Of a DNA stretch of 34,483 bases, positions 5,415-25,894 are shown piece by piece. Below the pieces are notes generated by a model, which was given only the letters and a program-made list of their open reading frames with translations, ran no database searches and had not been told where the DNA came from. Each line of letters begins with the position of its first letter. Position 1 is the first letter of the stretch. The translations under genes and the position numbers were made by a program. The stretch covers positions 1-34,483 of the forward strand of contig JAKBTP010000101.1 of NCBI GenBank assembly GCA_021844355.1. Direction: 5' to 3'. This stretch comes from a bacterium (GTDB lineage Bacteria; Chloroflexota; Dormibacteria; Aeolococcales; Bog-877).

Positions 5415-5753
5415 CTAGTCGCGCGAGCTGAGCAGTGCCGCGGCGCCGAGGACGGCTCCCGGCAGGGCCCGCAGCCGCCCCTTCCCCACCCGGAGATGGA
5501 TGGCGTACAGGATGAGGTTCCCCACTCCGCACCCTCGGGCCAGCACCCTTGCTGGGCCACTGCGTGGAGCGGCGCTGGCGGCCCCGCCCAGGGCCAGCCA
5601 CATCCCCAGGCCGGCGATCGAGCCCACTGCGCGTCCCGGCGACTGTCGGAACAGTGACCGTCGGCGGACCCACACGAAGTGGGCGACGTCCGCGGCCCCC
5701 AGCCACCCGACGACGGCGAGCCCCGTCACCTCGCCAGGCGACGGCGACCTCAT
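5415..5753 (-). CDS. Small hydrophobic membrane protein coupled to a PucR regulator
   Basis: A 112-residue protein with two or three hydrophobic segments (VTGLAVVGWLGAADVAHFVWV, AGLGMWLALGGAASAA and ALPGAVLGAAALL), interrupted by Arg-rich loops. I do not recognise a family. The ATG start overlaps the stop of the upstream PucR-type gene (ATGA), giving translational coupling and supporting that it is real. It could be a membrane partner or a target of the regulator, but nothing in the sequence names a function. Confidence 0.55.
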   Translation of the reverse strand: MRSPSPGEVTGLAVVGWLGAADVAHFVWVRRRSLFRQSPGRAVGSIAGLGMWLALGGAASAAPRSGPARVLARGCGVGNLILYAIHLRVGKGRLRALPGAVLGAAALLSSRD

Positions 5754-7063
5754 CCCGCCGTCACCGTGCGCTCGCGACCACCACCGCCCGGGGCGCGGGT
5801 GAGGTGGGGCGCCTCCGCCCCCGGCTCCGCGGTGCCCTGCAGGATCCGGTATCCGCGCAGAGCCAGCTCCAGGCGGAGGCGGTCGTCGGGGTCCTTCCAG
5901 TCCCCGACCAGCTCGCGGATCCTCTCGAGTCGGTACAGGAGAGTGTGGCGGTGAACATGGAGTTCCCGAGCCGCCTCACTGAGACCCCCTGCCGAGAGCA
6001 CCACCTCCAGGGTCTGGCGCAGGGGAGGACGGCGGCGCGACTCCCGCTCCAAAAGAGGGCCGAGGCTGGCGGCCACGAAGCCTTCCAGGCCGGGGAGGTC
6101 GTGGAGCCATCCGAGGTAGGGGTGGAGCCGGCTCCAGTCGTGGACCGCCTCCTCAGGCCGCAAGATGGCCCCCACCGTGAGGGCGTCGCGGGCGGCCCGC
6201 ACCGCCTGGGGAACGTCGGCGAGGTCCTGGGCCACAGGGCCCCGGGCGATCCTCCAGGGCAGCTGCTCGGCTTCGGTGGCGTTGCGCAGCGACCGTCGCA
6301 GGGTGGCGATCCGAACCGAGGTCGGGACCAGCGCCACCACCGCGGACTGGTAGAGGGCGACGTGCGCTCCCAGCGGCATCCACGAGGTGGCCACCGAGGC
6401 TTCCGCGCTGGTGTCCTCGGCCCCCACCACCACCACCTGGTACGGGAAGTTGAGCACCGTGCCGCCGGCCGCGGCCCGGGCCAGCGCCTCCTGGTCGGCC
6501 GTCCCCTGGATCACCTCGGCGAAGAACTGGTCGTACTGCCGGTCCTGCTCCCGCCGGGTGCGCTCGCGCGTCTCCAGGTAGCTGGTGCTCACCGCGGCGC
6601 TGATGCTGTCCAGGTAGTCGAAGAGCGGTCCCACCGCGGTCAGAACCGACTGCGCGTCGATCTCCGGATGGTTGCGCACCAACTCGATCACGTGCTGCCA
6701 GATGACCAGGGCGGCCACTCGGTACGCCCGCAGGATGGCGTCCAAGGGCACCCCGGTGGTGGCGAGCCGTCCGCCCATGCGCGAGAGCTGTTGCAGCTCC
6801 GGGCCCGAAGGGGGCCGAGATTCCGCCCACAGGGAGAGGAGCGTCGCCACCCCCTCCCGACAGGCCGCCAGCACCTCGCTGGAGAAGGCGGACCCACCGG
6901 CCACCCCCTCGGCGAGGGGAATCGTCCGGGCCATCTCGATCGCCATCCGCCGGGCCACCCGCTCCATCCGCTGACGGAGGGAGTCGATGATCACCGGGCT
7001 GACCGAGGGCATCCCCTCGTAGGTGCGGCGCGGGCGGCGGGGGCGGAGCAGGGCTACGGCCAC
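5750..7063 (-). CDS. PucR-family transcriptional regulator
   Basis: A 437-residue regulator. The C-terminal PucR-type helix-turn-helix is clear (LRQTLEVVLSAGGLSEAARELHVHRHTLLYRLERIRELVG, about residues 348-388), preceded by the GGDEF-like sensory domain of this family. The N-terminal half is helical and may bind a ligand or partner. PucR proteins are usually activators of purine, amino acid or other catabolic genes; the effector here is unknown. It is divergent from an MDR oxidoreductase gene, a common regulator-target layout, and overlaps a membrane protein gene downstream. GTG at 7063 is the longest start; ATG at 7012 is an alternative. TATGCT 9 nt before 7063 may be its -10. Confidence 0.85.
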   Translation of the reverse strand: MAVALLRPRRPRRTYEGMPSVSPVIIDSLRQRMERVARRMAIEMARTIPLAEGVAGGSAFSSEVLAACREGVATLLSLWAESRPPSGPELQQLSRMGGRLATTGVPLDAILRAYRVAALVIWQHVIELVRNHPEIDAQSVLTAVGPLFDYLDSISAAVSTSYLETRERTRREQDRQYDQFFAEVIQGTADQEALARAAAGGTVLNFPYQVVVVGAEDTSAEASVATSWMPLGAHVALYQSAVVALVPTSVRIATLRRSLRNATEAEQLPWRIARGPVAQDLADVPQAVRAARDALTVGAILRPEEAVHDWSRLHPYLGWLHDLPGLEGFVAASLGPLLERESRRRPPLRQTLEVVLSAGGLSEAARELHVHRHTLLYRLERIRELVGDWKDPDDRLRLELALRGYRILQGTAEPGAEAPHLTRAPGGGGRERTVTAG

Positions 7064-10605: not shown

Positions 10606-11784
10606 GTGAGCAAGAAAGTCCGCGTGGCCATCATCGGAGTGGGGAATTGCGCCTCCTCCCTCGTCCAGGGGGTGGAGTTCTACCGCCACACCGAGCCTTC
10701 CCAGTTCGTGCCCGGGCTGATGCACGTGGACCTCGGGGGGTATCACGTGGGGGACATCGAGTTCTCCGCCGCCTTCGACATCGACAAGGAGAAGGTGGGA
10801 TACGACCTCGGCGAGGCGATCTGGAGGGGACAGAACAACACGGTGGCCTTCGCCAAGGTGGGGCCGCTCGGGGTGCCCGTGCATCGCGGGATGACCCACG
10901 ACGGCCTGGGCAAGTACCTCTCCGAGGTCATCGAGAAGGCCCCTGGCCCCACCGCCGACATCGTCAAGATCCTCAAGGACACCGGCACCGACGTGGTGGT
11001 CAACTACCTGCCGGTGGGCTCCGAGATGGCCACCAAGTGGTACACCGAGCAGATCCTGGAGGCCGGCTGCGCCATGGTCAACTGCATGCCGGTGTTCATC
11101 GCCCGCGAGCAGTACTGGCGGCAGCGCTTCGAGGAGCGCGGGCTGCCGATCATCGGGGATGACATCAAGTCCCAGGTGGGCTCGACCATCATCCACCGGG
11201 TGCTGACCCGGCTCTTCCAGGAGCGCGGGGTCAAGTTGGAGCACACCTATCAGCTCAACTTCGGAGGCAACACCGACTTCCTCAACATGCTGGAGCGCGA
11301 GCGGCTGGTCAGCAAGAAGATCTCCAAGACCAACTCCGTCCTCTCCCAGATGGAGCACGAGATCGGGCGGGATGACGTGCACATCGGCCCCAGCGACTAC
11401 GTGCCCTGGCTGAAGGACCGCAAGTGGGCGCACATCCGGATGGAGGGCAAGGCCTTCGGGGAGGTGCCCCTCACCGTGGACCTGAAGCTCGAGGTCCACG
11501 ACTCCCCCAACTCGGCCGGGATCGTCATCGACGCCGTCCGCTGCTGCAAGCTCGGCCTGGAGCGGGGGCTGTCCGGGGCGCTCGAGGGTCCCTCCTCCTA
11601 CTTCATGAAGTCACCGCCATTCCAGGTCTCGGACGAGCGCGCTCACGAACTGACCGAGCTCTTCATCGCCGGCCGGGTCGGGGCCAAGTGCATCAGCGAC
11701 CCTGAGGCGGACCACGCTCCCCGGGCGAGCCAGGATGGGACCGCGGATACCCAGCCTCTCGCCGTCCGCCCAGCGGAAGGGTAG
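10606..11784 (+). CDS. ino1: Inositol-3-phosphate synthase
   Basis: A 392-residue NAD+-dependent enzyme that converts glucose-6-phosphate to 1L-myo-inositol-1-phosphate (also numbered 3-phosphate), the committed step of inositol synthesis. The NAD-binding loop [14 protein letters not shown] (about residues 9-22) and the conserved [13 protein letters not shown] and [13 protein letters not shown] segments place it with the short bacterial/archaeal form. It is slightly longer than actinobacterial Ino1 because of an acidic, Pro-rich tail after [10 protein letters not shown] that looks disordered. The start is GTG at 10606 with a near-perfect Shine-Dalgarno (GGAGGTGATC, 10592-10601). It is tightly coupled to the ArsR regulator and feeds inositol phosphate to the downstream lipid genes. 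Confidence 0.95.
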
Positions 11785-12035
11785 GGCGCCAGGGGACGGG
11801 CTGGGGCCCCGGGGAATCGGATGGCGACCGCGACGGCGGCGGGCAGGGGGACCGGCCGGCTCCTGTCGTCGCCCGTCCAGACCACCTCTGAGTGGGTCTG
11901 CCGGGGTGCGCACGGCGCCAGACTCCTCGAGCCCCTCCCCGGGCCACCCACCGGGAGCGCCGGAGAGCGGTCCCGGGCGTGCACGCAGTGGTCCGCCTCC
12001 CACCACCACCCGGCGCCAGTTCCGGGCGGCGGGAG
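11785..12035. other. 251-bp gap between ino1 and the acyltransferase gene
   Basis: The ORFs here on both strands are Pro/Arg/Ser-rich shadows without recognisable domains. I see no strong promoter or terminator. It could carry an extended N-terminus of the acyltransferase (the frame is open back to 11892), but the residues before MKVRVV are not family-like. Confidence 0.35.
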
Positions 12036-13100
12036 ATGAAGGTCCGGGTGGTCCCCAGCCCGCGCGCCGCGCTCGGGCGGGTGCGTCAGGTCGCCCTGCC
12101 GTCCAGCCTGCCGCGCCCCGACCCCGACGAGCCCTGGCTGCCCTACCTCGGGTTGCGGACCGCGGAGGTGGTGATGCGCTCAGTGGACCGCCGGGTGGCC
12201 TACTGGTTCGCGGGGCCCCTGGCAGCGGCCCTCACCCTCTGCTGGCCCGCCCACTGGCGGGGGCTGCGGGCCAATCTCCAGGTGGTCTGCCCCGGCCTGG
12301 GCCGGAGGGAGATGCGCCGCCTTCTTCGAGCCAACGTGAGCAACTTCCTCAAGGCCTGGGTCGACGTGCTGCAGATGAGCCACCGGCCCCTCGAAGCCTG
12401 GACCCCCTGGGTGCGCACCGAGGACGCCCACCTTCTGGAGGAGGCGCGCCGGCTGGGCCGGGGGGTGATCATCGTCAGTCTGCACCTGGGCTCCTGGGAG
12501 GCCGCCATCGCCGCGCTCCGCGAGAACTTCGACGGGGTCGGGCTGGCGCTGCTGGCCGAACAGGTTCGGCCCATCCGCTGCTTCAACTGGCTGGTGCGCA
12601 ACCGCGCTCGGGTGGGCTGCCAGGTGGTTCCGCTCAACGTGGACGCGGTGCGCCGCGGGGACCAGGCGGCGGTCCACCGTTCCGGGGCCGCGGCGGTGCG
12701 GCAGATCTACCGGATCCTGGGGGCCGGAGGCGTGGTGGTGATCGCCGTCGACCGTGACCTTCTGGGCACCGGTGCGGTGATGCCGTTCCTGGGGCACCGC
12801 GCCTCGATCCCGCTCGGGGCCGTCGAGATCGCCGCCCGGACCGGGGCGGCGGTGCTGCCCGTCTCCCTCACCCGCGATGCGCAGGACAACTATCACTGCC
12901 GCGGCTTCGCACCCTTCACGGTCACGCTGGGCGACGAGCCCCGCGCGGATCTGGAGGCGGCCGCCCGCCGCATCCTGCGCACCCTGGAGCCGGAGCTCCG
13001 GGCTCACCCCGACCAGTGGCATGTGATGAACCCGATCTTCGGCCCTCCGATGGCGGCCGAGGAGCCGGAGCCACCGGGGCTGCGTGAGGTGGCTTCGTGA
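12036..13100 (+). CDS. PatA/LpxL-type lipid acyltransferase (probable PI-mannoside acyltransferase)
   Basis: A 354-residue LPLAT/HtrB-family acyltransferase. The catalytic H-x4-D/E is seen in SLHLGSWEAA (H-x4-E). The fold segments expected of HtrB/PatA follow, including VVVIAVDRDLLGTGAVMPFLGHRASIPLGAVEIAARTGAAVLPV. In mycobacteria PatA acylates the mannose of PIM1/PIM2; here the neighbours (ino1, a PimA-like gene and a PI-synthase-like gene) argue for the same reaction, while the glutamate resembles LpxL. The ORF is open to 11892; ATG 12036 is chosen because family similarity begins just after it, although its GGGAG is very close. Its stop overlaps the next gene as GTGA. Acyl donor and acceptor are inferred. 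Confidence 0.82.
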   Translation: MKVRVVPSPRAALGRVRQVALPSSLPRPDPDEPWLPYLGLRTAEVVMRSVDRRVAYWFAGPLAAALTLCWPAHWRGLRANLQVVCPGLGRREMRRLLRANVSNFLKAWVDVLQMSHRPLEAWTPWVRTEDAHLLEEARRLGRGVIIVSLHLGSWEAAIAALRENFDGVGLALLAEQVRPIRCFNWLVRNRARVGCQVVPLNVDAVRRGDQAAVHRSGAAAVRQIYRILGAGGVVVIAVDRDLLGTGAVMPFLGHRASIPLGAVEIAARTGAAVLPVSLTRDAQDNYHCRGFAPFTVTLGDEPRADLEAAARRILRTLEPELRAHPDQWHVMNPIFGPPMAAEEPEPPGLREVAS

Positions 13101-14269
13101 TCCGGGTGGGGATGGTCTCGCCCTATGACTACCAGCGGCCTGGCGGGGTTGGCGAGCATGTCCGCCACCTCGCCGAGGAGCTGCGGCGGCGCGGGCATCT
13201 GGTCAAGGTGCTGGCCCCGGCTGCCGGCGGCGAACGGTTGGATGTGGAGGGGTTGATCCCGCTCGGGCGGCCCATTCCCTTCCCCGCCAACGGCTCGGTG
13301 GCCAGGATCTCTCTCTCGTTCCATCTCACCCGCCGGATCCGTTCGGTCCTCGCCGAGGAGGCCTTCGACGTCATCCACATCCATGAGCCCCTCATGCCGG
13401 CTCTGCCGATCACCGTCCTCCGGCTGAACCAGGCCAGCGCCGCGGTTGGCACCTTCCATGCGTACGCCCGCCAGAACCTCGGGTACTACTACGGCCGTCC
13501 GCTCCTGCGTCGGCAGTTTCGCCATCTGGACGCCTGCATCGCGGTGTCGGAGCCGGCACGGCGCTTCGTGGCCCGCTACTTCCCCGGCGACTACACGGTG
13601 ATCCCCAACGGGATCGACCCTCAGCGGTTCCACCCGGAGGTGGCCCCCAAGTCTGGCATCAGAGACCCGCGGCGCACGACGATCCTCTTCCTGGGCCGCC
13701 TCGAGGAGCGAAAGGGGCTGTCCACCCTTCTCGACGCCTACCAGCTGCTCCGCCAGGTGCGCACCGACTGCCAGCTGGTGGTCATCGGGGACGGCCCGCT
13801 GCGCCGGGGGTACGAGAGGCGGGTCGAGGAGGAGGGGATCCCGGACGTCCGGTTCCTCGGGTTCGTCCCCGAGGAGGAGAAGCCCGCCCACCTGACCGCC
13901 TGCGACATCTATTGCGCCCCCAACACGGGCAAGGAGTCCTTCGGGGTGATCCTGCTGGAGGCCATGGCCAGCGGCCGCCCGGTGGTGGCGACCGCTATAG
14001 ATGGGTTCCGCCAGGTTCTCACCGACGGCCAGGAAGGGCTGCTGGTCCCCAAGGGGGATGAGGGGCAGATGGCCCGCGCCCTCGCCCAGCTGCTCGATCA
14101 TCCGGAGCTTCGCCTCGAGATGGGGCGGCGAGGCCGGATGACAGCCGAGCGTTACGCCTGGCCGCTGGTCGCGGACCGGGTGCTTCAGGTTTACCGTAGG
14201 GCGCTGCGCCAGCGCTCCTCCCAAGAGGTGCAACCAAGTGTTCAGCAGACTGCTCCAGGCCTCCGTTAG
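13097..14269 (+). CDS. pimA: PimA-like GT4 glycosyltransferase (phosphatidylinositol mannosyltransferase)
   Basis: A 390-residue GT-B fold glycosyltransferase of family GT4. The N-terminus SPYDYQRPGGVGEHVRHLAEEL closely follows the PimA/MshA pattern for binding the nucleotide-sugar and the inositol acceptor. The C-terminal domain has FLGRLEERKGLSTLLDA and the E-x7-E motif GKESFGVILLEAMASG. In mycobacteria PimA transfers mannose from GDP-mannose to the inositol 2-OH of PI at the inner membrane face. The GTG start overlaps the upstream stop (GTGA), and the PI-synthase-like gene overlaps its 3' end by 32 bp, so all three are coupled. The donor sugar is inferred; a related GT4 such as MshA is the main alternative, less likely in this lipid context. 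Confidence 0.85.
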   Translation: MIRVGMVSPYDYQRPGGVGEHVRHLAEELRRRGHLVKVLAPAAGGERLDVEGLIPLGRPIPFPANGSVARISLSFHLTRRIRSVLAEEAFDVIHIHEPLMPALPITVLRLNQASAAVGTFHAYARQNLGYYYGRPLLRRQFRHLDACIAVSEPARRFVARYFPGDYTVIPNGIDPQRFHPEVAPKSGIRDPRRTTILFLGRLEERKGLSTLLDAYQLLRQVRTDCQLVVIGDGPLRRGYERRVEEEGIPDVRFLGFVPEEEKPAHLTACDIYCAPNTGKESFGVILLEAMASGRPVVATAIDGFRQVLTDGQEGLLVPKGDEGQMARALAQLLDHPELRLEMGRRGRMTAERYAWPLVADRVLQVYRRALRQRSSQEVQPSVQQTAPGLR

Positions 14270-14915
14270 GGCGGCCGCCCAGCGGCTGGCCGCCGCCAGC
14301 CGGCTGGTGGGCCTCAGCCCCAACGCCATAACCCTGATCGGGCTCGCCATCGCCGGCGGCGCGGCGGCCCTCGCGGCCCTGGACCTCCAGCTGTGGGCAG
14401 GGATCGTTCTGCTCCTGGCGGGGGCCTTCGACATCCTCGACGGGGCCGTGGCCCGCGAGTCCGGCCGGGTCCACCCGTTCGGCGCCTTCCTGGACAGCAC
14501 CGCCGACAGGTACGGGGAGGGGGTGCTCTACGCCGGCCTGGCCTACCTCTTCCTCGCCCACCTCCACCAAGAGGTCCCGGTTTTTCTGATCGTGGCAGCG
14601 CTCTTCGGCTCCCTCCTGGTGAGCTACGTGCGGGCCAGGGCGCAGTCCCTGGGGTACACCTGCGACGTGGGCTGGTTCGCCCGCCCGGAGCGTGTGGTGA
14701 TCACGGCCCTCGGGCTGATGCTGGGGCTGATGGTGCCGGTCCTCTGGATCCTGGCGGTCGCCACCAACCTCACCGCCCTGCAGCGGATCCACGCCGTTTA
14801 CCGGCAGTACCGAAAGGCTCAGGATCAGGCGGCTCCCGCGGCCCCCGCTGAGGGGATCCCGGAGCCCGCGCCGGACCCCAGGCGGCGCCGCGGCGCCGCT
14901 CCCAGCTCTCCCTGA
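14238..14915 (+). CDS. CDP-alcohol phosphatidyltransferase, probable phosphatidylinositol(-phosphate) synthase
   Basis: A 225-residue polytopic membrane enzyme with about six hydrophobic segments. The CDP-alcohol phosphotransferase signature D-x2-D-G-x2-A-R-x8-G-x3-D-x3-D is complete (DILDGAVARESG... FGAFLDSTAD, about residues 65-90). It would join CDP-diacylglycerol to inositol-1-phosphate, giving PI-phosphate for dephosphorylation, as in actinobacteria. The GTG start at 14238 has GAGGTG 7 nt upstream and lies within pimA. The C-terminus is an Ala/Pro/Arg-rich tail. The assignment to inositol rests on synteny with ino1 and pimA; a separate PgsA at 25980 makes phosphatidylglycerol-phosphate the less likely product here. 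Confidence 0.85.
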   Translation: MFSRLLQASVRAAAQRLAAASRLVGLSPNAITLIGLAIAGGAAALAALDLQLWAGIVLLLAGAFDILDGAVARESGRVHPFGAFLDSTADRYGEGVLYAGLAYLFLAHLHQEVPVFLIVAALFGSLLVSYVRARAQSLGYTCDVGWFARPERVVITALGLMLGLMVPVLWILAVATNLTALQRIHAVYRQYRKAQDQAAPAAPAEGIPEPAPDPRRRRGAAPSSP

Positions 14916-15099: not shown

Positions 15100-16056
15100 A
15101 TGGCGATGGAGTACACGCCGCTGCACGGGGAGGGGAGATCCTTCGCCGGGCTGAGCGGCCTGTTTGGCGAACTCATGGCCGAGGTCTTCGGCACCCTGAC
15201 GCTGATCGCCTTTGGGGACGGCGTGGTGGCGGTGGCGGTGGCGGGCCTCCCCGAATCCGGGCGCACCGCCGGGCCCACGGTGATCTTCCAGGCGGGCGGC
15301 GACTGGCTGCTCATCACCTTCGGGTGGATGTTCGCGGTGGTCATGGGCATCTACGTGGCGGGTGGAATCACCGGCGCCCACCTCAACCCGGCCGTGACCC
15401 TGGGGCTGGCGGTGCGCCGCAAGTTCCCCTGGAACAAGGTCCTCCCCTACATGGGGGCGGAGCTGGTGGGGGCGATCTTCGGCGCCCTCATCGTCTACAT
15501 GGTGTACGGGCCCGCCATCCAGGCCTGGGACCTGGCGGCCAAGACGGTGCCGGCGGCGGGCAACGCTCTGGCCAGCTACTCGATCTTCGCGACCTTCCCG
15601 GCCCCCTACTTCCACGGCAGCGTGGTGGGGCCGCTGGTGGACCAGATAGTGGGCACGGCGTTCCTTCTCATCCTGGTGCTGGCGATCACCGACGGCCGCA
15701 ACCTGGCGCCGGCGGGGAACATGGGCCCCTGGCTGGTGGGCGCCGCGGTGGGCGCCATCGGCATGTCGTTTGGCCCCAACGCCGGATACGCCATCAACCC
15801 CGCCCGTGACTTCGGGCCGCGCTTTGTGGCCTGGCTCTTCGGCTGGGGCAAGGTGGCCTTCCCCGGGACCTACAGCGCGGGGGCGTTCCACTTCTCCAAC
15901 TACTTCTGGATCCCGATAGTGGGGCCGCTGGTCGGCGGGGTAATCGGGGTCCTGCTCTACGACTACTTCATCGGCGATGTACTGGCCTCCCGGCTCAAGA
16001 AGGGCGAGGGCGAGCCCCCGCAGGGACGGGTGACCAGCGAAAGCCAGCAGTCGTAG
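15100..16056 (+). CDS. glpF: Aquaglyceroporin, glycerol facilitator
   Basis: A 318-residue MIP-family channel for passive glycerol entry across the cytoplasmic membrane. Both half-helix motifs are present: [11 protein letters not shown] in the first repeat and [10 protein letters not shown] in the second. The Asp after the second NPAR is the classical marker of glycerol-conducting GlpF over water-only aquaporins. Several further transmembrane segments are visible ([52 protein letters not shown]). The protein is longer than E. coli GlpF because of N- and C-terminal extensions. It is the first gene of the glycerol/DHA operon, behind a promoter and palindrome, and the dihydroxyacetone kinase gene starts 16 bp after it. 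Confidence 0.95.
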
Positions 16057-16072: not shown

Positions 16073-17074
16073 GTGAAGAAGCTGATCAACCGACCTGAGG
16101 ACGTGGTCCGGGAGGAGCTGGAGGGGATCGCCGCCGCCCACTCCGACCGGGTCAGGGTCTCCCTCGACCCCTACTACGTGATGAGGGCGGACGCCCCCGT
16201 CCAGGGCAAGGTGGCGGTGGTCTCCGGCGGGGGCTCGGGCCACGAGCCGATGCACGGAGGCTTCGTGGGCATGGGCATGCTGGACGCGGCCTGCCCCGGG
16301 GAGGTCTTCACCTCCCCGACCCCGGACCAGATACTGGCCGCCACCAAGGCGGTCAGCGGGGGGGCCGGGGTGCTCCACATCGTCAAGAACTACACCGGGG
16401 ACATCCTCAACTTCGAGATGGCCGCCGACCTGGCCAAGGAGGACGGGATCCTGGTGGAGGCGGTGGTGACCAACGACGACGTCGCCGTCCAGGACAGCCT
16501 CTACACCGCGGGCCGCCGCGGGGTCGGGGTCACCGTCCTGGCCGAGAAGATCTGCGGTGCGGCTGCCGAGGGCGGCCGGTCCCTCAGCGAGGTGGCCGAG
16601 CTCTGCCGCAAGGTCAACGCCAACGGCCGCACCATGGGCATGGCCCTCACCTCCTGCACGGTGCCGGCGGCGGGCAAGCCCACCTTCGAGCTGGGCGAGG
16701 ACGAGATGGAGCTCGGGATCGGGATCCACGGGGAGCCCGGCCGGGAGCGGCGCCAGCTGGCGACGGCCGACGAGATCGTGGAGGTGCTGGCCACCACCGT
16801 CGTGGATGACCTGCCCTTCAAGTCGGGCGACAGGGTCCTGGCCTTCGTGAACGGCATGGGCGGGACCCCGCTGATCGAACTCTACGTGGTCTACCGCGCG
16901 CTGGACCGCTTCCTCAAGGGGCGGGGGATCGCCATCGAGCGGAACCTGGTGGGACCCTACATAACGTCGTTGGAGATGGCCGGCACCTCGATCACCCTGC
17001 TCCGGCTCGACGACGAGCTGGTGCGGCTCTGGGACGCGCCGGTCAACACCCCCGGCCTGCGCTGGGGGGCCTGA
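16073..17074 (+). CDS. dhaK: PTS-dependent dihydroxyacetone kinase, substrate-binding subunit DhaK
   Basis: A 333-residue protein that binds dihydroxyacetone covalently as a hemiaminal and presents it for phosphorylation to DHAP. The key residues are visible: H219 in GIGIHGEPG (substrate-linking His), D110 in [12 protein letters not shown] and H57 in [13 protein letters not shown]. The length matches PTS-type DhaK, not the fused ATP-dependent kinase. The GTG start at 16073 follows glpF by 16 bp. It works with DhaL (next gene) and the DhaM-type phosphodonor at the end of the operon. All catalytic positions are intact. Confidence 0.95.
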
Positions 17075-17126: not shown

Positions 17127-17765
17127 ATGGGGGCGGGATACCCCGAGAGCCTCTCTATGGTGCGCGGCTTCGCCCAGGCTGTCGCCGCCAATCGCGAGTA
17201 CCTGACTCAGCTGGACGCCGAGATCGGGGACGCCGATCACGGGATCAACATGGACCGGGGGATGAGCGCCGTCGTTCCCAAGGTGGAGGCCCTGACCGAC
17301 CACGACATCTCCGGCCTCTTCCGGACCGTGGCCATGACCCTCATCTCCACGGTGGGCGGGGCCAGCGGCCCCCTGTACGGCACCGTCTTCCTCCAGCTCG
17401 CCTCCAGCCTCAAGGGAAGGTCGGAGGTCGGGCTGGGGGAGTGGGCGGAGGCGGTCTCGGCCGCGGTGGCCGCGGTCCAGTCACGGGGGAAGGCGCAGCC
17501 CGGGGACAAGACCATGGTGGACGCCCTGCTGCCGGCCGCGGAGGCGCTCCAGGCGGCGCAGGCGGAGGGGGTGCCCTTCTCCGAGGGGCTCGCCCGAGCC
17601 ACCAAGGCGGCCCACGGGGGCATGGAGGCCACCATCCCGCTGGTGGCCCGCCGGGGACGGGCCAGTTACCTCGGAGAGCGGAGTGCGGGGCATCAGGATC
17701 CGGGGGCGACATCCTCCTGGCTCCTGATGGAGGCGGCGGAGGCCGCGTTCGCGAAGGGGAAGTAG
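17127..17765 (+). CDS. dhaL: Dihydroxyacetone kinase ADP-binding subunit DhaL
   Basis: A 212-residue all-helical subunit that holds ADP as a permanent cofactor; DhaM phosphorylates the bound ADP and DhaL passes the phosphate to DHA on DhaK. The Mg2+-binding aspartates are at D30, D35 and D37 (LDAEIGDADHGINMDRG), the same spacing as E. coli DhaL. The C-terminal RRGRASYLGERSAGHQDPGATSSWLLM is a family hallmark. The start at 17127 has GGGGAGGGG upstream. It follows dhaK by 52 bp. Because it uses bound ADP, it needs the PTS phosphodonor encoded at 23399. Confidence 0.95.
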   Translation: MGAGYPESLSMVRGFAQAVAANREYLTQLDAEIGDADHGINMDRGMSAVVPKVEALTDHDISGLFRTVAMTLISTVGGASGPLYGTVFLQLASSLKGRSEVGLGEWAEAVSAAVAAVQSRGKAQPGDKTMVDALLPAAEALQAAQAEGVPFSEGLARATKAAHGGMEATIPLVARRGRASYLGERSAGHQDPGATSSWLLMEAAEAAFAKGK

Positions 17766-17819
17766 GCGGGCGGAGCGCCGCGGGGGGCGCGGCGGAGGAA
17801 AGCTAGCGGAGGTGGCGTG

Positions 17820-19316
17820 ATGGCCAAGTACGTGGGTGCCCTGGACCAGGGCACCACCAGCACCCGGTTCATGATCTTCGATCATTCCGGGAACGTGATC
17901 GCGGTGGACCAGAAGGAGCACGAGCAGATCTACCCCAAGCCGGGGTGGGTCGAGCACGACGCCATGGAGATCTGGACCCGCAGCAAGGAGGTGATATCGG
18001 GGGCGCTGGCCAAGGCCGGCATCCAGCCCTCCGACCTGGCCGCCGTCGGGGTGACCAACCAGCGTGAGACCACGGTGATCTGGGACAGGACCACCGGTCG
18101 GCCGGTGCACAACGCCATCGTCTGGCAGGACACCAGGACCGACACCATCTGCAACGACCTGGCCAAGGACGGGGGCCAGGACCGCTTTCGGGAGAAGGTG
18201 GGCCTGCCGCTGGCCACCTACTTCTCCGGCCCCAAGATCCGCTGGGTCTTGGACAACGTCCCCGGGGTGCGGGAGCGGGCCGAGAGGGGCGAGGTGGTCT
18301 TCGGCAACATCGACAGCTGGTGCATCTGGAACCTCACCGGCGGGGTGAACGGTGGACTGCACCTCACCGACGTCACCAACGCCAGCCGCACCATGCTGAT
18401 GAACCTCAAGACCCTGGACTGGGACCCCGAGATCCTCGCGATCATGGGGGTGCCGCGGGCGATGCTGCCCGAGATCCGGCCGTCCAGCCAGATGTACGGG
18501 GAGTGCAAGGAGGGGGTGCCCGGGGTTCCGGTGGCCGGTGACCTGGGCGACCAGCAGGCGGCCATCTTCGGGCAGACCTGCTACTCGGTGGGGGAGGCCA
18601 AGAACACCTACGGGACCGGGAACTTCCTTCTGCTCAACACCGGCACCAGCCCGATCCAGTCCAAGAACGGTCTTCTGACCACCCTCGGCTACAAGATCGG
18701 CGACCAGCCGGCGGTCTACTGCCTCGAGGGCTCGATCGCGATCACCGGTGCCCTGGTGCAGTGGCTGAGGGACAACCTGGGGATGATCAGCCAGTCCTCG
18801 GACATTGAGAAGCTGGCGGCCACGGTGGAGGACAACGGCGGGGTCTACTTCGTGCCCGCCTTCTCCGGCCTCTTCGCCCCCTACTGGCGCAGCGACGCCC
18901 GGGGCGTGATCGCCGGCCTCACCCGCTACGTCAACAAGGGGCACATCGCCAGAGCCGTCCTGGAGGCGACCGCCTGGCAGACCCGCGAGGTGGTGGACGC
19001 CATGAACCAGGACTCGGGCGTCGCCCTGACCTCCCTCCGGGTGGACGGGGGCATGGTCCACGACGAGCTCCTCATGCAGTTCCAGGCGGATGTCCTCGGA
19101 GTTCCGGTGATCCGGCCCAAGGTGGCCGAGACCACCTCGCTGGGCGCCGCCTACGCCGCCGGGCTGGCGGTGGGCTTCTGGACCCAGCTGGACGAGCTCC
19201 GGGCCAACTGGGGGGTGGACCGGACCTGGGAGCCCCGGATGGACTCCGAGCTCCGGGAGAAGGAGTACAAGCTCTGGAAGAAGGCCGTCACCCGCACCTT
19301 CGACTGGGTGGAGTGA
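17820..19316 (+). CDS. glpK: Glycerol kinase
   Basis: A 498-residue FGGY-family kinase that phosphorylates glycerol to sn-glycerol-3-phosphate with ATP, trapping it after GlpF entry. Typical segments are [18 protein letters not shown] (phosphate loop), [33 protein letters not shown] and [11 protein letters not shown], with the FGGY signature region [18 protein letters not shown]. The ORF track begins at GTG 17817, but ATG 17820 has the better 6-nt spacing from GGAGGT (17808-17813). It is full length with no damaged motif. It sits between dhaL and glpA, linking uptake to the GlpABC oxidation step. Confidence 0.96.
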
Positions 19317-19338: not shown

Positions 19339-20895
19339 GTGAACACGCTGGACACCGACGTCCTGGTGATCGGGGGAGGCTCCACCGGGGCGGGGGTGGC
19401 GTGGGACTCCGCGCTGCGGGGTCTCCACGTCACCCTGGTGGACCGGCAGGACTTCGCCACCGGGACCAGCGGCCGCTTCCACGGCCTGCTGCACTCCGGG
19501 GGGCGGTACGCGGTCAAGGACCCGGGCTCGGCCCGCGAGTGCGCGGCCGAGAACCGGATCCTCCGCCAGGTAGCCGCCGACTGCATCGAGGACACCGGGG
19601 GGCTGTTCGTCAGCACCCCCGAGGATGATCTGGAGTACGCCGACCGTTTCCTCGCCGCGGCCAGGGCTGCGGGGATGGAGGTCGAGGAGGTCCCGGTGGG
19701 CACCGCGCTACGGGACGAGCCCCGCCTCAACCCCAAGATCCGGCGGGCCTTCCGGGTCCAGGACGGCTCGATCGACTCCTGGAAGATGGTCTCTGCCCTT
19801 CTCCGGGGGGCCGAGGCCCACGCGGCCACCGTCCTCCCGTATCACAAGGTCGTCGAGGTGCTGCGCCACGGCGACCGCGTCGAGGGGGCGGTGATGGAGG
19901 ACCAGCGCACCGGGCAGGAGGTGCGGGTCCACGCCGGGTGCGTCGTCAACGCCGCCGGCGCCTGGAGCGGACAGGTGGCCCGCCTGGCCGGCTGCGAGGT
20001 CGGGGTGCGTCCGGGCAAGGGGGTGATGGTGGCGATCAACCACCGGCTGGCGCGGGCGGTCCTCAACCGCTGCCACCTGCCCTCGGACGGCGACATCATC
20101 GTCCCCGTCCGCACCGTCAGCGTGATCGGGACCACCGACCACCCGGTGGCCGACCCGGACGACACGGAGTGCAGCCCGGAGGAGGTGCACCAGATGATCG
20201 AGGCGGGCGAGCTTCTGGTGCCAGGGTTCAGGGAAGCCCGGGCGCTGAGGGTCTGGGCCGGCTCCCGGCCACTCCTCCCCAAGACCGGGGGCTCCGCGGG
20301 GGCGGGCGACCGAGAGGTGAGCCGCTCCCACACCGTGCTGGACCATGGGGCCCGGGACGGGCTGGAGGGGCTGGTGACCATCGCCGGGGGGAAGTTCACC
20401 ACCCTGCGCCTCATGGCCGAGGACACCGTGGATGTGGTGGTGCGCAAGCTCGGGCGAGGGTCGGAGTGCCGCACCCGCACCGAGGTTCTCCCCGGGAGCG
20501 AGTCCCGTCACTTCTACTGGATCGGGAACCGCCAGCAGGAGGCGGAGACCGATCCGCCCGATGACCCTCTCATCTGCGAGTGTGAACTCGTGTCCCAGCA
20601 TGACCTGGACACCGTCGTGGCCCGGCGCCCCACCTGGCGGCTGGATGACATCCGCCGAGCCCTGCGGGTGGGGATGGGCCCCTGCCAGGGCGGCTTCTGC
20701 GCCTTCCGGGTGGCCGGCATGCTGCATCAGGAGGGCAGGTACGGCCGGGCCGAGGCGAACTCGGCGCTCCGGGAGTTCGTCCAGGAGCGCTGGAAGGGGG
20801 TCAAGGTGATCTCCTGGGGCGCCCAGGCGCGGCAGACCCGGCTGGACCGTTGGATCTTCGAGGGGCTGTACGACCTGGAGCATCTTCCCGAGTGA
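19339..20895 (+). CDS. glpA: Glycerol-3-phosphate dehydrogenase subunit A (FAD and [2Fe-2S])
   Basis: A 518-residue flavoprotein, the catalytic subunit of the GlpABC complex that oxidises G3P to DHAP and passes electrons to quinone. The N-terminal FAD-binding loop is VLVIGGGSTGAGVAWDSALRG (about residues 8-28), followed by GRFHGLLHSGGRYAVKD. A C-terminal BFD-like [2Fe-2S] domain is present, with cysteines in CECE (about 413) and GPCQGGFC (about 450). That domain separates GlpA from the shorter aerobic GlpD. The start is GTG at 19339, 22 bp after glpK. With glpB and glpC next, the complex is complete. Confidence 0.94.
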   Translation: MNTLDTDVLVIGGGSTGAGVAWDSALRGLHVTLVDRQDFATGTSGRFHGLLHSGGRYAVKDPGSARECAAENRILRQVAADCIEDTGGLFVSTPEDDLEYADRFLAAARAAGMEVEEVPVGTALRDEPRLNPKIRRAFRVQDGSIDSWKMVSALLRGAEAHAATVLPYHKVVEVLRHGDRVEGAVMEDQRTGQEVRVHAGCVVNAAGAWSGQVARLAGCEVGVRPGKGVMVAINHRLARAVLNRCHLPSDGDIIVPVRTVSVIGTTDHPVADPDDTECSPEEVHQMIEAGELLVPGFREARALRVWAGSRPLLPKTGGSAGAGDREVSRSHTVLDHGARDGLEGLVTIAGGKFTTLRLMAEDTVDVVVRKLGRGSECRTRTEVLPGSESRHFYWIGNRQQEAETDPPDDPLICECELVSQHDLDTVVARRPTWRLDDIRRALRVGMGPCQGGFCAFRVAGMLHQEGRYGRAEANSALREFVQERWKGVKVISWGAQARQTRLDRWIFEGLYDLEHLPE

Positions 20896-20929
20896 CGGCA
20901 GGGCGGCGCGGTCCCTGGAGGAGAAGGTG

Positions 20930-22183
20930 ATGGGGACGGACGCGGTGGTGCTCGGCGCCGGGACGGCGGGGATGGTGGCGGCGCTGCGGCTGGCGGCCGC
21001 TGGGGCGTCGGTCCTGGTCCTGGCCGAGGGCGAGGGCGGGCTGCCGCTGGCGCCGGCGCAGATCGATGTGCTCGGCTACCGGCCACAGCTGGTCCTGGAT
21101 CCCCTGGGCGAGCTGGCGGGCTTCCTGGAGTCCCGGCCCGACCATCCCTACCAGCTGGTCGAGGCGGGCGAGGTTGGGGCCAGCCTGGACTGGTTCCTGG
21201 AGCTGTCGGCGCCCCTGGGGTACACGGGAAGCCCCCGCCTCAACCGGCTGCAGCCCACCGGCCTGGGGGCGCTTCGCCCCACCTGCCTGGTGCCCGAGAC
21301 CATGGCGGCCGGGGACCTCAGCGACGGCGGGTCGGTGCTGGTGGTGGGGCTCAGAGGATTCCGCGACTTCCACGCTCCGCTGCTGGCCGAGAACCTGGCC
21401 CTCGCGCACCCGCCCTCGGGGGCAGAGGTCCGCGCCCGGGCGGTGGAGGTGAGCCTACCTGGGGATCCCCGGGACCTCAGGCCCCAGCTGCTGGTGCGGC
21501 GCCTAGAGGAGCGGGGGGTGCTGGCGGAACTGGGGCGGGAGATCCGCTCCCGCCTGGAGCAGGAGGACCTGGTGGGTGTGCCCGCGGTCCTGGGGCTGGA
21601 GAGCTCCCACGAGGTCTGGCAGGGGCTCCAGGAGCTGGTCGGCAGGCCGGTCTTCGAGATCCCCACCCCGCCACCCTCCCAGCCCGGTCAGCGGCTGCAG
21701 CAGCACCTCTTCCGCGCGCTGCGCCGGCTCGGCGGCGAGGTGCGGCTGGGGGCCCGGGCCGCCGGGTATCGGGCCCGTGGCGATCGGTTGGTGGCGGTCA
21801 AGGTGGTGACGGCGGCGCGGGAGGTGGAGATACCGGCCGACCACTTCGTCCTGGCCACGGGGGGCATCGGCACCGGGGGAATCACCGCCGGCCCCGACGG
21901 GGAGCTGCGTGAGGAGGTGTTCGGCGCCCGGGTCTCCCGGGGAGGGGCGCCGGAGCAGCCGCTGGTCGAGTACATGGCGACCCAGCCGCTGGACCGGGTC
22001 GGGGTGGAGGTCGACGAAGAGCAGAGGCCCCTGGGAGGGGGCGGCGGGGCGCTCTTCGAGAACCTCTGGGCGGCGGGGGCGGCGCTGGCGGGCGCGGAGC
22101 CCTGGCGCGAGAAGTCCGGGGAGGGGATCAGCCTGGCGACCGGATTCCGGGCCGCTCGACTGGCCGGGGGGGCGCGGGCATGA
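20930..22183 (+). CDS. glpB: Glycerol-3-phosphate dehydrogenase subunit B
   Basis: A 417-residue flavin-binding subunit of GlpABC. The Rossmann loop VLGAGTAGMVAALRLAAAG is at the N-terminus, and a C-terminal FVLATGGIGTGGI segment fits a GlpB/FAD-reductase-like fold. In E. coli, GlpB is required with GlpA for activity and membrane attachment through GlpC. GTG 20927 and ATG 20930 are both possible starts from the same GGAGG (20917-20921); ATG is chosen. The stop overlaps the glpC start (ATGA). The sequence is divergent from E. coli GlpB, so position between glpA and glpC is a major part of the assignment. Confidence 0.88.
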   Translation: MGTDAVVLGAGTAGMVAALRLAAAGASVLVLAEGEGGLPLAPAQIDVLGYRPQLVLDPLGELAGFLESRPDHPYQLVEAGEVGASLDWFLELSAPLGYTGSPRLNRLQPTGLGALRPTCLVPETMAAGDLSDGGSVLVVGLRGFRDFHAPLLAENLALAHPPSGAEVRARAVEVSLPGDPRDLRPQLLVRRLEERGVLAELGREIRSRLEQEDLVGVPAVLGLESSHEVWQGLQELVGRPVFEIPTPPPSQPGQRLQQHLFRALRRLGGEVRLGARAAGYRARGDRLVAVKVVTAAREVEIPADHFVLATGGIGTGGITAGPDGELREEVFGARVSRGGAPEQPLVEYMATQPLDRVGVEVDEEQRPLGGGGGALFENLWAAGAALAGAEPWREKSGEGISLATGFRAARLAGGARA

Positions 22184-23412
22184 CCGAGCTGGCCTGGGGG
22201 GCGGAGGCGTGGTCCGAGGTCCGGGCCTCGCTGGACCGCTGCATCAAGTGCACCGTGTGCGAGACCGCCTGTCCGGTGGCCGCGGTCACCGAACTCTTCC
22301 CCGGCCCCAAGACCGTCGGCCCCCAGGCCGAGCGCTTCCGCACCGGTGGCCACTCGCCGGACCTCTCGGTGGACTACTGCTCCGGCTGCGGTATATGCAG
22401 CCGGGTGTGCCCCCAGGGGGTCCGGATCGCCGAGCTCAACTCAAGGGCCCGCTCCGAGCTCAAGCGGGAGCGGGGGGTGCCCCTTCGTGACCAGCTGGTG
22501 GCGCGCCCAGGGCTGCTGGGGCGGTTCGGGCGTCCTGTCGCCCCGCTCTTCAACCGGGCCATGGCCAACTCCCTGGTCCGCTGGGCGGGCGAGCGCACCA
22601 TCGGCATTCACCGCAGGGCGCCCGTGCCCCGCTCCACCACCCGCACCTTCTCCCACTGGGTAGGGCACCACGCGGGCACCAAGTCGGCTCGCCGGGTGGT
22701 CTACTTCCATGGCTGCAGCACCCAGTGGTACGAGCCCCACGTCGGCCAGAAGGTCACGGCCATCCTGGAGCACAACGGCTACCAGGTGATCATCCCCAAG
22801 CAGGACTGCTGCGGGCTGCCGTTGCAGTCCAATGGGCTCTTCCCCGCCGCCCGCAAGGCGGTGACCAGGCTGGCGCGGCAGCTGGTCCCGGACGCCACCG
22901 GCGACCTTCCGGTGATCTCCTCCTCCACCAGCTGTGGCCTGATGCTCAAGCGGGAAGCCCGCGAGATCCTGGGTGCGGACTCCCCCGAGCTGCGCTCGGT
23001 GAGCGCGCGCACCTATGACATCTTCGAGTTCCTGCGGGAACTCCACCAGCGGGGCGAACTCCGAACCGACTTCAAGCCGGTGCCGCTCACCGTGGCGTAC
23101 CACGCTCCCTGCCAGCAGCAGAACCAGTTGATCGGTAAGCCGGCGCTGGAGATCCTCCGGCTCATACCGGGGCTGAGGCTGGTCGAGCTCGATCGCTCCT
23201 GCTGCGGCATCGCCGGGACCTACGGGGTCAAGAGGGAGAAGTACGAGATCGCCATGCGGGTGGGGAAGCCGCTCTTCACCGACATCCAGGCCGAGGGGCC
23301 GGACCTCGTGGCCTGTGACAGCGAGACCTGCCGCTGGCAGATCTCGGCGGCCACCGGAGCCACCTCGGTCCATCCGCTCGAGATCCTCCACCGGGCCTAT
23401 GGCGGCAGCTGA
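22180..23412 (+). CDS. glpC: Glycerol-3-phosphate dehydrogenase subunit C (iron-sulfur/CCG protein)
   Basis: A 410-residue electron-transfer subunit. Two [4Fe-4S] motifs are seen: C21-x2-C24-x2-C27-x3-C31 (CIKCTVCETACP) and C67-x2-C70-x2-C73-x3-C77 (CSGCGICSRVCP). Two CCG domains follow, with DCCGLPLQSNG and RSCCGIAGTYG. This is the architecture of GlpC and heterodisulfide-reductase-like proteins; it anchors GlpAB and delivers electrons to menaquinone or ubiquinone. No clear transmembrane helix is present, as in other GlpC. The start overlaps the glpB stop (ATGA), and its last 14 bp overlap the DhaM-type gene. Confidence 0.93.
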   Translation: MTELAWGAEAWSEVRASLDRCIKCTVCETACPVAAVTELFPGPKTVGPQAERFRTGGHSPDLSVDYCSGCGICSRVCPQGVRIAELNSRARSELKRERGVPLRDQLVARPGLLGRFGRPVAPLFNRAMANSLVRWAGERTIGIHRRAPVPRSTTRTFSHWVGHHAGTKSARRVVYFHGCSTQWYEPHVGQKVTAILEHNGYQVIIPKQDCCGLPLQSNGLFPAARKAVTRLARQLVPDATGDLPVISSSTSCGLMLKREAREILGADSPELRSVSARTYDIFEFLRELHQRGELRTDFKPVPLTVAYHAPCQQQNQLIGKPALEILRLIPGLRLVELDRSCCGIAGTYGVKREKYEIAMRVGKPLFTDIQAEGPDLVACDSETCRWQISAATGATSVHPLEILHRAYGGS

Positions 23413-25894
23413 GTCGCCCCCGGACCACGTCCGCCTGGTCCTGGTCTCCCACAGCTCCCAGCTGGCGGCCAGCGCTGCCGCTCTGGCCGCGGCCATGGCA
23501 CCGGAGGTGCTGGTGCTGCCGGCCGGCGGGGTGGGGGAGGACCCGGCCGTGCTGGGGACGGACGCCAAGCGGGTGGCGGAGTCCATCCAACGCGCCTGGT
23601 CCCCTGCCGGAGTGGTCGTCCTCATGGACCTGGGCAGTGCCGTCCTCTCGGCCGAGCTGGCGCTGGAGCTGCTCCCCGAGGGGCGGCGCCAGGGGGTCCG
23701 CCTCAGCTCCGCCCCGCTGGTCGAAGGGGCGGTGGCTGCGGCGGTGGCCGCCCAGGGGGGAGCGGACGTCGCCCAGGTGGTCCGGGAGGCGGAGGCGGGG
23801 CTCGCCGGGAAGCGTTCCCAGCTGGGCGACGCCCCCACCACTCCCCAGACCGGACCCCGCGGCGAGGAGAACGCCGGGTGGAGGGGGCTGACGGTGCGGG
23901 TGGACCTTCCCATGGGGCTCCACGCCCGGCCGGCGGCCCGGGTGGTCCAGCAGCTGGCGGGGCTGGACGCGGAGGTCCGGGCCACCAACGTCACCACCGG
24001 TGAGGGACCGGTCAGCGCCCGCAGCCTCAACGCCCTCGCCACCCTGCAGGTGGCGCCATCCCAGCTCCTCCTGTTCGAGGCCCGAGGGGCGGACGCGGAG
24101 CAGGTGCTCGGCCGGCTCGGCGAGCTGGCCGGCCGAGCCTTCGACGACCTGGAGGAGGCCGCCCCGGCGGCCCCAACGGAGGTCGCCGGGACGCCTCTCG
24201 CCCCCGGGGTCCTCGTGGGTCTGCCGGCTTCCCCCGGCGCCGCGGTGGGTGAGGTGGTCCACCTGGTACAGGCTGAGCTGGTGGTCCACGACCGGTTGCC
24301 CGGGCCTCCGCAGCGGGAGCTGGGCTCCCTGGAGGGCGCCCTGGGGGCCGTCCGGGAGGAGCTGAGGGAGCTGCGCGAGCGGACGGCCGGGCGATCGGGC
24401 AACTATGCCGCCGCCATCCTGGACGCCGACCTCCTCTTCCTGGACGACCCGGAGCTCTCCGGGCGGGCGCGGGAGGCGATCTCCGCCGGAGGAGTGACCG
24501 CGGAGGCCGCCTGGCAGGCTGCCGCGGAGGCCGCCCGCGCCAGCTGGGAGAGGGTCGCCGACGCCCGGCTGCGTCTCCGGGCCGCCGACCTGGACGGGGT
24601 GGCCCGGAGGGTGCTGGCCCACCTGCTGGGGTCACCTGAGGTGGTGCCGACCGGGACAGGCGTGCTGGTCGCCGAGGATCTGACCCCCGCGGACACCGCC
24701 CAGCTCGACCCGGCGTCTGTCCTCGGGATCGCCACCGCGGCCGGGGGCCCGACCTCGCACAGTGCCATCCTGGCGCGGACCCTGGGCATCCCGGCGGTGG
24801 TAGGGGTGGGGAAGGGGCTGCTCGAGCTTCCCGCCGGCCGGACGGTGCTCCTGGACGGTGACCGGGGAGTGGTCCGGCTCGACCCGACGGAGGAGGAGAG
24901 GGAGGCCGTGGGGAAGGAGGCGGCCCGGCGGGCCGAGGCCAGCCGCGCCGCCTCTAAGAAGGCGAGCCGCCCGGCTCGGACCCGGGACGGGACGGCGGTG
25001 GAGGTGGCGGCCAACATCGGGTCGGTGGCGGACGCCCGTGCCGCGGTCCTGGCCGGCGCCGACGGGGTGGGGCTCCTGCGGACCGAGTTCCTCTTTCAGG
25101 ACCGACCGGTCCTGCCCGACGAGGAGGCGCAGTTTCGCGAGTACAGCGAGATCGCCGTGGCCCTTCAGGGCCGGCCACTCACCATTCGCACGCTGGACGT
25201 GGGCGCGGACAAGCCCCTTGCGTCGCTGCCCCGGGACCCCGAGCCCAATCCGGCCCTCGGGGTGCGCGGCCTGCGCCTGGGCCTCGCCCGGCGAGACCTC
25301 CTTAGGACCCAGCTGGCGGCGGTGGCCCGGGTGGCGGCCGAGCACCGGGTCCGGGTCATGTTCCCCATGGTGGCCACGGTGGGCGAGGTGCGCAGCGCGC
25401 GCGAGCTCTTGGCGGCGCTCCCCGCGCCCGACCAGAGGCCAGGGGTCCCACCGCTGGAGGTGGGGATCATGGTCGAGGTTCCGGCGGCTGCGCTGGCCGC
25501 GGACCGGCTGGCCGAGCTGGTCGACTTCCTGTCGATCGGCACCAATGACCTCTCCCAGTACACCATGGCCGCCGACCGGGGAAACGGCGGGCTGCGGGGA
25601 CTGGCCGACCCCCTCCACCCGGCGGTCCTCCGCCTCATCCAGCTGACCGCGGCGGCCGCCACGGGGGCGCGCTGGGCGGGGGTCTGCGGCGAGCTGGCGG
25701 GGGACCCACTGGCCACCGAGCTGCTGATCGGGCTGGGGGTGAGGGAGCTGTCCGCCGCGCCGCGGCTGGTGCCGGGGGTCAAGGAGGCGGTTCGTGCCTG
25801 CACCCTCGCGCGGGCCCGGCGGCTGGCCGAGCGGGCACTTCAGCTGCCCGACGCCGATGCGGTTCGGGAGCTGCTCAAAGAGCCTCGCCGCTGA
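23399..25894 (+). CDS. dhaM: DhaM-HPr-Enzyme I fusion: complete PEP-to-DHA phosphotransferase chain
   Basis: An 831-residue, three-part phosphotransferase. Residues about 10-135 are a DhaM/EIIA-Man domain with active H18 (LVLVSHSS) and MDLGSAVLSAE. About 163-250 is HPr with H175 (MGLHARPAA). About 265-830 is Enzyme I with phospho-H454 (GGPTSHSAILAR), R561 (GLLRTEFLF), SIGTNDLSQYTMAADR and C763 (GVCGELAGD). E. coli DhaM keeps only part of EI, whereas here the PEP-binding C-terminal domain is intact, so the protein could take phosphate from PEP and pass it EI-HPr-DhaM to DhaL-bound ADP alone. The ORF track starts at 23315; ATG 23399 is the correct start because similarity begins at residue 11. 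No separate ptsH or ptsI is seen in the window. Confidence 0.94.
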   Translation: MAAAESPPDHVRLVLVSHSSQLAASAAALAAAMAPEVLVLPAGGVGEDPAVLGTDAKRVAESIQRAWSPAGVVVLMDLGSAVLSAELALELLPEGRRQGVRLSSAPLVEGAVAAAVAAQGGADVAQVVREAEAGLAGKRSQLGDAPTTPQTGPRGEENAGWRGLTVRVDLPMGLHARPAARVVQQLAGLDAEVRATNVTTGEGPVSARSLNALATLQVAPSQLLLFEARGADAEQVLGRLGELAGRAFDDLEEAAPAAPTEVAGTPLAPGVLVGLPASPGAAVGEVVHLVQAELVVHDRLPGPPQRELGSLEGALGAVREELRELRERTAGRSGNYAAAILDADLLFLDDPELSGRAREAISAGGVTAEAAWQAAAEAARASWERVADARLRLRAADLDGVARRVLAHLLGSPEVVPTGTGVLVAEDLTPADTAQLDPASVLGIATAAGGPTSHSAILARTLGIPAVVGVGKGLLELPAGRTVLLDGDRGVVRLDPTEEEREAVGKEAARRAEASRAASKKASRPARTRDGTAVEVAANIGSVADARAAVLAGADGVGLLRTEFLFQDRPVLPDEEAQFREYSEIAVALQGRPLTIRTLDVGADKPLASLPRDPEPNPALGVRGLRLGLARRDLLRTQLAAVARVAAEHRVRVMFPMVATVGEVRSARELLAALPAPDQRPGVPPLEVGIMVEVPAAALAADRLAELVDFLSIGTNDLSQYTMAADRGNGGLRGLADPLHPAVLRLIQLTAAAATGARWAGVCGELAGDPLATELLIGLGVRELSAAPRLVPGVKEAVRACTLARARRLAERALQLPDADAVRELLKEPRR

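Follow-up and report, generated by a model that had tools for sequence, protein, structure and literature searches.

A DhaM-HPr-enzyme I fusion in a glycerol operon of uncultured Chloroflexota suggests a phosphotransferase system devoted to a soluble triose kinase

The window, by which we mean the whole 34,483-nucleotide contig that was analyzed, carries on its plus strand a tight operon of eight co-directional genes in the order glpF-dhaK-dhaL-glpK-glpA-glpB-glpC-dhaM. The operon begins with a glpF-like gene for an MIP channel, a likely entry route for glycerol and dihydroxyacetone (DHA) (15100-16056; TIGR00861, 189 bits, cut-off 171). This is followed by dhaK, encoding the DHA-binding subunit of DHA kinase (16073-17074; TIGR02363, 494.7 bits, cut-off 406.25, with matches to E. 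coli DhaK structures), dhaL, encoding the ADP-carrying subunit of the phosphotransferase system (PTS) type (17127-17765; TIGR02365, 240.1 bits, cut-off 138.3), and the glycerol kinase gene glpK (17817-19316; TIGR01311, 748 bits). The genes for anaerobic glycerol-3-phosphate dehydrogenase come next, with glpA for subunit A at 19339-20895 (TIGR03377, 630 bits), glpB at 20927-22183 (TIGR03378, 203.8 bits, cut-off 174) and glpC at 22180-23412 (NF008369, 475 bits; TIGR03379, 295 bits). The last gene, dhaM-HPr-EI (23399-25894), encodes an 831-residue protein and overlaps glpC by 14 bases; the preceding spacings are, in order, gaps of 16, 52, 51, 22 and 31 bases and an overlap of 4. DhaK exceeds the cut-off of the DhaK equivalog model and not that of DhaQ, and DhaK and the PTS-type DhaL are separate proteins that retain their catalytic motifs. 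A scan for promoters and terminators gave nothing over background.

Two other features of the window lie ahead of the operon. A PucR-type helix-turn-helix regulator is encoded on the minus strand about 8 kb upstream (5750-7063). A plus-strand cluster at 10606-14915 encodes an inositol-3-phosphate synthase, a lipid acyltransferase whose nearest model is the phosphatidylinositol (PI)-mannoside acyltransferase, a GT4 glycosyltransferase, and a CDP-alcohol phosphatidyltransferase nearest to (archaetidyl/phosphatidyl)inositol phosphate synthases. All matches in this cluster, that of the acyltransferase included, fall under the NCBIfam curated cut-offs; they suggest that the cluster may make inositol phospholipids or glycolipids by a pathway resembling that of Actinobacteria.

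The reading frame of dhaM-HPr-EI is open over 831 codons plus a stop from the ATG at 23399, a start codon that is uncertain, with no clear ribosome-binding site seen upstream of it. Five Pfam domains, all far over the cut-off, follow one another along the chain. The first is a IIA-Man (DhaM) domain (PF03610; 23435-23779, residues 13-127, 1.9e-18), which also matches the DhaM structures 3ct6 and 3cr3 and carries the active histidine His18 (codon 23450-23452) in the motif LVSHSSQ. The second is an HPr domain (PF00381; 23891-24127, residues 165-243, 1.4e-13) that matches E. coli HPr, with His175 (codon 23921-23923) in GLHARPA. The remaining three make up enzyme I (EI): the N-terminal, HPr-binding domain (PF05524; 24218-24580, residues 274-394, 2e-22), the mobile phosphohistidine domain (PF00391; 24662-24868, residues 422-490, 6.1e-23), with His454 (codon 24758-24760) in TSHSAIL, and the phosphoenolpyruvate (PEP)-binding barrel (PF02896; 24956-25798, residues 520-800, 8.7e-93), with Cys763 (codon 25685-25687) in GVCGELA. 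The NCBIfam model for EI, TIGR01417, covers residues 272-826 with 454.8 bits against a cut-off of 341.7, and that for DhaM, TIGR02364, also passes its cut-off over residues 11-132. When the protein is aligned with E. coli EI, residues H189, R296, R332, E431, N454, D455, R465 and C502 of the latter correspond to H454, R561, R597, E693, N716, D717, R727 and C763, all identical, and every active residue checked is kept in the window protein and in the nine related fusions from its order that the alignment contains. These domain and residue matches are far beyond chance and settle the domain folds.

An earlier note, made from the DNA letters, had placed H18, H175, H454 and C763 together with a complete EI in one 831-residue protein, and the Pfam, NCBIfam and alignment results bear this out. 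The contrast that it drew with E. coli DhaM also holds: the E. coli protein, annotated with 472 residues, shares the IIA-Man, HPr and EI phosphohistidine domains but has no PEP-binding domain and depends on PtsI and PtsH, and the 473-position model of E. coli-type DhaM matches residues 11-493 of the window protein and ends there. The phrase "single-chain PEP-to-dihydroxyacetone" is only partly apt. IIA-Man, HPr and a complete EI do lie in one chain, but a single-chain relay reaching as far as DHA is an overstatement, because DhaL and DhaK are separate proteins.

The note had further proposed that the organism could phosphorylate DHA without any general PTS. The genome from which the window derives is a 1.94-Mb draft in 232 contigs, estimated to be 85% complete, and it was compared within a set of 41 related genomes that includes seven congeners (84-93% complete); named control genomes gave positive matches in each PTS family search. 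Besides the protein itself, a whole-protein search of the genome gave only three weaker matches, located on two other contigs and confined to the PEP-enzyme parts. The EI-specific N-terminal domain occurs a single time. EI, HPr and IIA-Man are each present once in the genome, all of them in the dhaM-HPr-EI gene, and the same count holds for each of the seven congeners. Separate ptsH, ptsI and EII genes were sought and found neither in this genome nor in the congeners. If losses were independent, a second gene universal in the genus would go unseen in all eight of its drafts with a probability of about 3e-8. IIA-Man, HPr and the EI N-terminal domain (over cut-off) share one distribution across the 41 genomes, each being present as a single copy in the same 22, and DhaK is found in 21 of these 22 compared to three of the other 19 (Fisher p 1.4e-7, ignoring relatedness). 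The marks of a sugar-transporting PTS, namely EIIC (PTS_EIIC) and the sugar IIA proteins (IIA-Glc, IIA-Fru/Ntr and IIA-gut; EIIA_1, EIIA_2 and gutA), were found in none of the 41 genomes, nor were those of a regulatory PTS, namely a PRD regulator or an HPr kinase above the cut-off. For mannose-class transporters the evidence is indirect: the sole IIA-Man is the one in dhaM-HPr-EI. These searches, made on a draft of the stated completeness, support the proposal of DHA phosphorylation without a general PTS and suggest that dhaM-HPr-EI is the only phosphotransferase system of these uncultured bacteria.

We therefore consider it very probable that the PTS-type DHA kinase encoded in the same operon has in the fusion protein a phosphoryl donor of its own, complete in itself. 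PEP would phosphorylate His454 in the EI part, and the phosphoryl group would pass to His175 of HPr and on to His18 of IIA-Man. From His18 it would be transferred to the ADP held by DhaL and then to DHA bound on DhaK, yielding DHA phosphate; the steps from DhaM through DhaL-ADP to DhaK are summarized in PMC3863723. The direction and order of transfer are predicted from the biochemistry of DhaM, HPr and EI in other organisms, and DHA as the substrate and its entry via GlpF are likewise presumed. No general EI or HPr would be required and none seems to exist in the genus, so the PTS here would be a soluble triose kinase rather than a transport system.

Where the DHA might come from was addressed among PF00465 matches in the genus, which consist of an iron alcohol dehydrogenase of about 350 residues and longer weak ones that we take to be dehydroquinate synthase. 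Glycerol dehydrogenase was considered as the source and rejected, with the ~350-residue protein (L207 copy) reaching 53 bits against a 336-bit cut-off, and no source of DHA was identified among these matches. Because no glycerol dehydrogenase was recognized, we prefer exogenous DHA entering through the MIP channel as the source. Glycerol kinase can phosphorylate DHA as well, as in Haloferax (PMC3863723), and the glycerol kinase and DhaKLM routes may overlap.

Three other readings of the locus were weighed. The EI and HPr parts could serve further clients, for example in regulatory phosphorylation of glycerol kinase or of other proteins, so that the protein would be a general PTS fused to DhaM. 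HPr of Firmicutes phosphorylates GlpK on a histidine, and glpK lies in the same operon here; however, the loop that carries this histidine in Firmicutes, at the position we assume for it, has no histidine in the window's GlpK, and the absence of EII, PRD and HPr kinase from this genome and its congeners also speaks against such clients. We regard this reading as unlikely. DhaK and DhaL could instead run on ATP, with the fusion being a relic or a regulator, as might be suggested by three genomes with dhaK and no detected PTS carrier (G013, G015 and G017) and by the presence in relatives of a second DhaK-DhaL pair without DhaM. Against this, the window's DhaL scores 178 bits to the PTS-type structure 2btd compared to 52 bits to ATP-type kinases, and the window protein and its nine same-order counterparts keep every checked active residue. 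In G015 and G017, moreover, the contig breaks off within the glpK of the dhaK cluster, and the dhaM part of the operon may just be missing from the assembly. Operation on ATP thus appears quite improbable. A separate ptsI, ptsH or sugar EII gene could, finally, lie in the part missing from the 85% complete draft. Given the same single set in seven congeners and the lack of EIIC and sugar EIIA throughout the 41 genomes, we attach very little probability to this explanation.

The congeners share the operon's gene order, as do a second genus of the family (L010/L192, Candidatus Dormiibacterota bacterium) and a single genus from a sister family (L188); a Chloroflexota MAG (L012) keeps most of it. 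Some genera of the sister family have the same functions in separate genes, with dhaK-dhaL-ptsI on one strand facing ptsH-dhaM (L184, 6416-10428, and L187; similar in L185 and L186), and again no transporter was found in these genomes. Considering both gene layouts, we think it probable that the whole PTS in the order serves only a soluble triose kinase, without any part in transport or in known PTS regulation, and is thus a naturally minimal PTS. An Anaerolineae MAG (L042, 8001-11576) has a similar glpF-dhaK-dhaL-glpK-glpA cluster, in which IIA-Man and HPr are apart from a 584-residue EI frame. The second DhaK-DhaL pair (L202, 7393-12294 on the minus strand; also L188, L191, L195 and L203) is possibly an ATP-type kinase acting on another ketose; in L202 its neighbors are a class II aldolase and a transaldolase-like gene, and G013 has only this second pair and no PTS carrier.

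The design of the protein is already known. Multiphosphoryl transfer proteins that combine IIA-Man, HPr and EI were described by Comas et al. (2008) as "invariably associated" with DHA kinase, and the E. coli version was noted to be without EI (PMC2405797). The window protein has the defining traits of this class, namely the domains in one chain, the active histidines and EI PEP-site residues, and the linkage to DHA kinase genes, as in the Vibrio parahaemolyticus member "vparaamhe" (PMC2405797). It differs in being the only PTS found in its genome and in closing an eight-gene glycerol operon. The haloarchaeal DHA PTS of Haloquadratum walsbyi and Haloferax volcanii is also a soluble DhaKLM system, and in Haloquadratum it was reported without a transport PTS, whereas Haloferax has two transport PTSs in addition (PMC2841640). 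Cyanobacterial DhaM-HPr-EI proteins (Nostoc, Symploca and Pleurocapsales; L013-L016) are 41-44% identical to the window protein, and the one scanned (L013) has the same five Pfam domains; in Nostoc and Symploca, however, neither dhaK nor dhaL lies in the fetched flank, and they are adjacent only in L016. Our literature search found no paper on the PTS of the phylum Chloroflexota. Since the fused proteins of 2008 and the Haloquadratum DHA PTS had already been reported, the present finding is of a known design in an uncultured group, to which it adds the separate-gene layout in the same order and EI trees that argue against a single fused clade.

These trees were built with IQ-TREE on the EI part of proteins drawn from the best 80 matches to the window protein plus the same-order loci, a sampling that is not broad. 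Groups were named by layout before tree building, and a first quick tree was seen before the constraint test, from which two long rows were left out. Fusions of Microbacteriaceae and relatives (among the actinobacterial DhaM-HPr-EI proteins L044, L045, L049, L067, L068 and L072) nest inside actinobacterial stand-alone EI with support of 99/95, and the window protein is placed away from them. The EI of the separate-gene layout (L184-L187) forms a long separate branch. A single clade of all fused EI in the set was rejected by 185 log-likelihood units (p-AU 1.33e-9), a test that covers the EI part and neither the 2008 members themselves nor HPr, and a single clade of the fused and split EI of the window's order gave a p-AU of 0.052. 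The HPr domains led Comas et al. to infer a common ancestor (PMC2405797), whereas the EI sequences compared here do not fit a single origin. Since the clade of all fused EI is rejected, this kind of fusion is best regarded as a domain layout of repeated origin, probably put together on two or more occasions.

As a natural minimal PTS, one protein together with DhaL and DhaK should run the relay from PEP to DHA phosphate, and so small a set would be convenient for reconstituting it. The system suggests that EI and HPr can be retained without a transport task. Together with the evidence of repeated fusion, the finding that a single order contains both the fused and the separate layout may be relevant to the assembly of multi-domain phosphocarriers.
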